A program made the translations under genes and the position numbers. Under the pieces are notes generated by a model, which was not told where the DNA came from, did no database searches, and was given only the letters and a program-made list of their open reading frames with translations. From Fibrobacter succinogenes (GTDB taxonomy: Bacteria > Fibrobacterota > Fibrobacteria > Fibrobacterales > Fibrobacteraceae): a stretch of DNA of 51,134 nt. This document shows positions 5,162-5,547 of the stretch, one piece after another. How positions within the stretch are numbered: the stretch's first letter is position 1; each line of letters starts with the position of its first letter. The stretch lies in the NCBI GenBank assembly GCA_902756345.1, contig CACVQR010000017.1, positions 1 through 51,134 of the forward strand. Direction: 5' to 3'.

Positions 5162-5234
5162 GCGGGAGTAGCTCAGTTGGTAGAGCGCGACCTTCCCAAG
5201 GTCGATGTCGAGGGTTCGAAACCCTTTTCCCGCT
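5162..5234 (+). tRNA. tRNA-Gly (CCC)
   Basis: The cloverleaf is complete. The acceptor strands are GCGGGAG (5162-5168) and TTCCCGC (5227-5233). The D-arm has AGCTCAGTTGGTAGAGC. The anticodon stem CGACC/GGTCG encloses loop TTCCCAA, anticodon CCC, and the T-arm loop is TTCGAAA. The discriminator base is T5234 and CCA is not encoded. A strong terminator follows. Confidence 0.95.
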
Positions 5235-5236
5235 CT

Positions 5237-5274
5237 AAAGCAAAAAACCACCCTATCGGGTGGTTTTTTGCTTT
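5237..5274 (+). terminator. Rho-independent terminator after tRNA-Gly
   Basis: This is a 17-bp perfect inverted repeat (5237-5253 with 5258-5274) with loop TATC. The upper stem ACCACCC/GGGTGGT is GC-rich and is followed by six T on the 3' arm. It is symmetric, so it could also stop leftward transcription. Confidence 0.92.
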
Positions 5275-5280
5275 ATTCGC

Positions 5281-5521
5281 GGAAGGGTTTCTAAGAACCT
5301 TCGAAGAGGATTCGACTAAATTCTTTTGCGGGCGCAAGCCCATGAAAAGAATTTAGGACTTACTGCGCAAGCAGTAAGCCCGAAGGGCGGCAAGCCAGCC
5401 GCGTAAGCGGAGACTGGCGAAGCTGTCAAACCCTTTCCCAACTCATTAACAAGTGTATCGAGCATTGAGCCCGTAGGGTTAACTCACAACCTTGCGTAAG
5501 CAAGGAATATTGTGAGTTAAC
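5281..5521. repeat. Dense cluster of nested perfect hairpins
   Basis: This 240-bp non-coding stretch is almost wholly made of inverted repeats. 5316-5327 pairs with 5345-5356 (12 bp) around an inner GGGC/GCCC hairpin. 5359-5366 pairs with 5371-5378 (8 bp). 5378-5381 pairs with 5385-5388 (loop GAA). 5394-5398 pairs with 5414-5418 around CCGC/GCGG. 5478-5489 pairs with 5510-5521 (12 bp) around CCTTGC/GCAAGG. Arms 5283-5290 and 5428-5435 could close the first set. Loops are GCAA or GTAA four times. No ORF or T-run explains it. Confidence 0.75.
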
Positions 5522-5547
5522 AAACCCTTTACAGAAAAAAGTGTAGC

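Follow-up and report, generated by a model that had tools for sequence, protein, structure and literature searches.

The tRNA-Gly(CCC) locus and its units

The window analysed here is the whole 51,134-nucleotide stretch of a Fibrobacter succinogenes genome assembly (GCA_902756345.1, contig CACVQR010000017.1, positions 1 to 51,134). It starts within a tRNA (positions 1-53; Rfam tRNA, 33.8 bits, 5' end cut off). Directly behind its tRNA-Gly(CCC) gene and a terminator-like hairpin lies a dense cluster of further hairpins, which is made up of one full unit of RtT type (Rfam RF00391) and one 5'-truncated unit. The features of this locus, with R1 denoting a covariance model built from 11 Fibrobacter Pro units only, are the following.

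5162-5235, + strand: host tRNA-Gly(CCC) (ARAGORN; Rfam tRNA, 64.2 bits)
5236-5275, + strand: perfect 18-bp (18/18) terminator-like hairpin TAAAGCAAAAAACCACCC/GGGTGGTTTTTTGCTTTA, between tRNA-Gly(CCC) and unit 1 (repeat search)
5279-5445, + strand: unit 1, a complete RtT-type unit (R1 match 5279-5441, 43.4 bits, E 1.7e-12; fold z -6.19)
5281-5290, + strand: 5' strand of P1, GGAAGGGTTT, which is the tRNA tail in reverse complement, with one bulge
5295-5313, + strand: P2 hairpin GAACCTTC-GAA-GAGGATTC
5316-5356, + strand: P3, a 12-bp stem with an inner GGGC-GCAA-GCCC hairpin (repeat search; changes on both sides at 11 of 11 pairs in the family)
5359-5378, + strand: P4, CTTACTGC-GCAA-GCAGTAAG
5379-5387, + strand: P5, CCC-GAA-GGG, near-invariant both across the family and in RtT of E. 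coli
5388-5425, + strand: P6, CGGC..GCCAG-CCGC-GTAA-GCGG..CTGGC..GCTG, a long hairpin with a 3' bulge
5428-5445, + strand: tRNA-Gly tail copy AAACCCTTTCCCAACTCA, which forms the P1 3' strand (repeat search)
5458-5533 (start approximate), + strand: unit 2, a 5'-truncated remnant (repeat search; counterparts at other loci)

The sequence copied in the units is that of tRNA-Gly(CCC) from the T-loop to the 3' end, AAACCCTTTTCCCGCTC. Unit 1 ends with AAACCCTTTCCCAACTC, which repeats the tRNA sequence from the final bases of the T-loop through the mature 3' end, and the 3' strand of P2, GAGGATTCGA (5306-5315), copies the 5' half of the tRNA T-arm, GAGGGTTCGA. From this layout of P1, P2 and tail it follows that P3-P6 occupy the T-loop position of a tRNA 3'-half copy. 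Unit 2 keeps part of P4, P5 (CCCGTAGGG), P6 (5478-5521), which is the second of the 12-bp stems, and a degenerate copy of the tRNA tail, AACCCTTTACA. Intact counterparts of unit 2 occur at locus L018, and a similar remnant is found at L021; the tail of the window copy is itself degenerate.

Both 12-bp perfect stems described in the initial annotation are present (5316-5327/5345-5356 and 5478-5489/5510-5521), as are the 8-bp stem (5359-5366/5371-5378) and the four caps, GCAA at 5334 and 5367 and GTAA at 5403 and 5496. The emphasis on GNRA caps holds for the window itself, whereas C(GAA)G is the commoner cap across the family. The description of the cluster as non-coding agrees with the lack of any ORF of at least 80 aa spanning it, and a terminator-like hairpin, of 18/18 bp at 5236-5275, does stand before the cluster as described. 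An ordinary terminator was thus rejected as an explanation, since the terminator-like hairpin stands apart from the cluster. The stretch from 5270 to 5530 folds at -104.3 kcal/mol against -70.1 +/- 5.1 kcal/mol for dinucleotide shuffles (z -6.75, 0 of 200 as low), and unit 1 alone (5279-5445) gave z -6.19, again with 0 of 200 shuffles as low; these two values rule out chance hairpins. Two features had been overlooked, namely that the stem enclosing the cluster is formed with a copied tRNA 3' end and that the cluster belongs to a family of repeats associated with tRNA genes. In the Rfam scan of the window, tRNA was the sole family to reach its threshold.

Covariation and strand

When 11 Pro units were aligned by sequence alone (A3), 90.7% of cells paired and 20 pairs were changed on both sides. 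The covariation score was 0.377; shuffles gave 0.148, and slid partners no more than 0.123. When all units were aligned with MAFFT only, P4 and P6 were misregistered between unit types; the model was therefore built from one Pro unit type and then used to align the others. The resulting alignment of 118 distinct units, which was made with the model and hence leans towards it, scored 0.481 (shuffled 0.145, slid at most 0.077), and in P3 changes on both sides occurred at all 11 pairs. Paired substitutions, whose lack in homologous loci would have spoken against a structure, are thus present. With the conserved P1-P6 order and a cross-phylum match to RtT, they support the earlier suggestion of a multi-domain structured RNA, which remains a predicted RNA. 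The other suggestion, that palindromic repeats had landed inside one another, does not agree with the fixed order of the hairpins, although P4 and P6 types are swapped between loci.

Where the register is secured, G-U exceeds A-C by 45 to 6 in P2, P4 and P6 (19:2, 15:1 and 11:3 respectively) in the same model-leaning alignment, pointing to RNA made from the tRNA strand. A strand-symmetric stem search over all stems gave a weak excess (G-U 121, A-C 92, p 0.055). P3 has 11 G-U and 14 A-C beside 1368 Watson-Crick cells. Such a near-pure Watson-Crick helix is unusual for RNA and is compatible with correction of a palindrome at the DNA level.

The family in Fibrobacter and the tail rule

More copies lie on other contigs of the same genome, behind both tRNA-Gly(GCC) genes, and a scan of its tRNA loci found units behind tRNA-Pro(UGG) and tRNA-Pro(CGG) in which tail and reverse complement are both of Pro type. 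In relatives, units occur genus-wide and also behind tRNA-Ser(CGA). Thus, units in the Fibrobacteraceae follow five tRNAs (Gly-GCC, Gly-CCC, Pro-UGG, Pro-CGG and Ser-CGA) with matching tails, in tandem at some loci. R1 matched 76 of 150 genomes of the phylum, and all 76 belong to one family. The Fibrobacter units lie on the same strand as the tRNA at a median distance of 50 nt.

Each copy carries the last ~16 bases of its tRNA, and often part of their reverse complement too, so that the tail sequence differs by host tRNA. Identity between unit and host tRNA rises abruptly at T-loop position -16/-15 from the 3' end and drops past the mature end; over the T-stem and acceptor strand it is mostly 75-100%, and falls to 33-66% at a small number of acceptor positions in Gly and Ser tails. 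Pairing of the 5' strand with the unit's own tail, judged by duplex energy, is clear for Pro and weak for Gly-CCC and Ser, and the acceptor part of P1 is frequently unpaired despite the conserved tail copy. Among 18 arrays with at least two units, the tRNA-proximal copies are better preserved in 8 and the distal ones in 1.

Several loci depart from the common arrangement. Pro-CGG units at L115, L117, L118, L120, L124 and L130 combine the CGG tail with the P4 type usual for Pro-UGG; judging from these sequences, modules seem to have been exchanged between loci. At L057 (1294-1452, - strand), a Pro-tailed unit lies upstream of tRNA-Pro(UGG), between this gene and tRNA-Lys(UUU). The reverse-complement strand is missing, and the hairpins of this unit are set straight into the T-loop of a tRNA-Pro copy that is cut short near the anticodon. 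Matches at L098 and L103 resemble this T-loop unit. L040 and the distal part of the array at L019 carry other hairpin types with partial tRNA-Gly tails and match the model poorly. Toxin-antitoxin-like pairs follow two arrays, HTH and HipA at L018 (2-1225, - strand) and HTH-like and Gp49-like at L058 (1830-2495, - strand).

Relation to RtT and breadth beyond Fibrobacter

Although built from Pro units, R1 finds the Gly units, that of the window included. In E. coli K-12 it also recovered all four RtT copies (29.2, 17.4, 16.7 and 15.6 bits; E 7e-8 to 2e-3), the next match scoring 5.4 bits. Conversely, RF00391 run on whole genomes matched 5 of 16 Fibrobacter genomes at 30-38 bits (best 37.6; E<=0.001) and reached its gathering score of 45 bits in none of the 16. 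It reported nothing in the genome of the window, and in a set of Fibrobacter loci there was no RtT match at E<=1. Four of the five sub-threshold places coincide with R1 matches; the two checked, in G003 and G005, both lie behind tRNA-Ser(CGA).

The units stand behind a tRNA gene and carry a copy of the 3' end of that tRNA. They also contain the near-invariant P5 CCCGAAGGG and the T-arm copy GTTCGA, which in the window appear as CCCGAAGGG and GATTCGA. The E. coli tyrT RtT unit shows the order GGGGAAGGAT, T-arm hairpin, GAGCGNNAGCGA, GCCGCAGGC, CCCGAAGGG and tail ATCCTTCCCCCACCACCA. A tandem G-A motif has been noted for RtT (PMC7657543). The aligned Pro units have invariant GA..GA columns, which are absent from the Gly units, including that of the window; the placing of the RtT motif in P3 is an assignment made in this analysis. 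From its agreement with the E. coli RtT consensus, the cluster very probably shares the identity of RtT, function aside. It is also probable that it encodes an RtT-class RNA, linked to a tRNA and closed at P1 by the copied 3' end of that tRNA together with a (partial) reverse complement of it.

When 84,980 genomes were scanned with a DNA pattern, 55 loci were obtained. The pattern fixed parts of the motif beforehand (including GTTCGA and CCCGNAGGGC) and is uninformative on the conservation of those letters; an upstream tRNA with a matching tail is independent evidence, because the pattern did not require either. In Gammaproteobacteria the tail is that of the upstream tRNA for Val, Ser, Lys, Tyr, Glu and Arg, and RF00391 reaches its threshold in several of these units. 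Units with matching tails follow Ser tRNAs in Burkholderiales. In these two groups taken together, a few units have altered tails. MAGs labelled Nitrospirae (L217, Ser) and Verrucomicrobiales (L196) also carry units, under labels that may be wrong. The remaining pattern matches are due to chance and mostly have no tRNA nearby. Four matches fell in viral contigs, of which one is real, an E. coli-like RtT copy (L221). RtT has been reported near Asn and Lys tRNAs in Pasteurellaceae (PMC4986893).

RtT has been almost unstudied and was known from Gammaproteobacteria; the Fibrobacter units place it in a further phylum, where its hosts are tRNAs for Gly, Pro and Ser. With a tail that matches whichever tRNA is the host, what had been a peculiarity of E. 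coli becomes a widely distributed class that obeys a plain rule. As a speculative extension, held with low confidence, RtT-type units could be widespread tRNA-adapting elements that establish themselves behind a wide variety of tRNA genes in several phyla and copy the acceptor and T-arm of each host tRNA, and their reverse complement, by an undescribed mechanism. The family offers natural tests of which tRNA end and which helices the RNA needs, and of how a sequence acquires the end of a neighbouring tRNA.

Proposed expression and role

RNA polymerase would read past the tRNA terminator into the units, and each transcribed unit would fold as a P1-P6 junction. The tRNA-like end of a unit may allow tRNA-maturation enzymes to cut there, at the 3' end of the unit, and release an RNA of ~150 nt, by analogy with the release of RtT in E. 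coli. The tail copy, which stops at the mature tRNA end, fits the use of these enzymes. A promoter-like site was sought inside unit 1 and none was found; with the terminator-like hairpin standing before the unit, expression remains predicted only. E. coli RtT is freed from tRNA operon transcripts and has been tied to amino-acid limitation and the stringent response (PMC4986893). On this analogy, the released RNA might, tentatively, have a regulatory or decoy function that is tied to the output of the tRNA and the supply of amino acids.

Alternative explanations

The units might instead be mobile, non-autonomous DNA (or RNA-templated) elements, which insert in the T-loop of a tRNA and restore it with the 3' part that they bring; tandem units would then have arisen by repeated insertion or by amplification, and their hairpins would serve mobility and not the host. 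Tail copies running from the T-loop to the mature 3' end, the better preservation of tRNA-proximal copies, sporadic presence behind many tRNAs in differing taxa and the occurrence of units at contig ends, like repeats, would all suit such an element, as would the almost purely Watson-Crick P3 and the hairpins set directly in the T-loop of the 5'-truncated tRNA-Pro at L057. However, neither recombinase nor reverse transcriptase was found among the flanking proteins at the several loci of the same genome that were examined, where HAD, NUDIX, HTH/HipA, Gp49-like, L20 or unassigned proteins were met instead, and the strong conservation of helices and the G-U bias in P2, P4 and P6 argue for a function as RNA. 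This account is the strongest competitor of the RtT reading, yet is judged rather unlikely; mobility and RNA function are compatible and do not exclude each other. A far more remote idea is that the tails are leftover attR sites of phages or integrative elements, with the hairpins unrelated. Transfer RNA 3' ends are classical integration sites, and the repeat does start in the T-loop. What lies between the tail copies is, however, a conserved unit of ~200 bp with a fixed helix order, found in many species and matching RtT, and no integrase is present in the flanks examined. This makes attR sites very improbable.

The repeated capped hairpins could also act as a sponge for a binding protein, such as one of the CsrA/Rsm type. 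C(GAA)G caps do recur in the Fibrobacter units, and GGA-bearing loops in several gammaproteobacterial ones, but no candidate protein is known, and a sponge appears improbable. A CsrA sponge in Fibrobacter is ruled out by the absence of CsrA from the 16 Fibrobacter genomes searched. The gammaproteobacterial units with GGA-bearing loops (L165, L171, L172, L179, L182, L190 and L206) resemble CsrA/Rsm sites and are in this respect unlike the Fibrobacter units. An RtT-class RNA is the preferred reading of the cluster.

Comparison with known systems

Small RNAs from the trailer of a tRNA transcript, such as 3'ETS-leuZ among the tRNA external transcribed spacer RNAs, resemble the RNAs predicted for the units in their origin. 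Unlike the units, 3'ETS-leuZ is not known to have a tRNA-tail copy or a conserved multi-helix structure. Integrative elements that target tRNA genes share with the units a direct repeat of the tRNA 3' end from the T-loop in their att sites, whereas the units are ~200 bp long with a conserved structure and no integrase in the flanks tested.

The closest likeness is to RtT (RF00391, rttR, tyrT operon), with which the Fibrobacter units have in common, in the same order, the reverse complement of the tail, the T-arm hairpin, P3, P4, the P5 motif CCCGAAGGG, P6 and the tail copy. Units also stand in tandem behind a tRNA in both, and the models match in both directions. A tandem-GA apex of P3 is seen in most Fibrobacter Pro units. 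In contrast to RtT, the Fibrobacter tails are those of Gly, Pro or Ser and not of Tyr, P3 and P6 are longer, a terminator-like hairpin precedes the unit, CCA is not encoded and the units score under the Rfam gathering threshold. The Fibrobacter RtT-type units are a new lineage of a known kind of RNA, distantly related to the RtT of E. coli.
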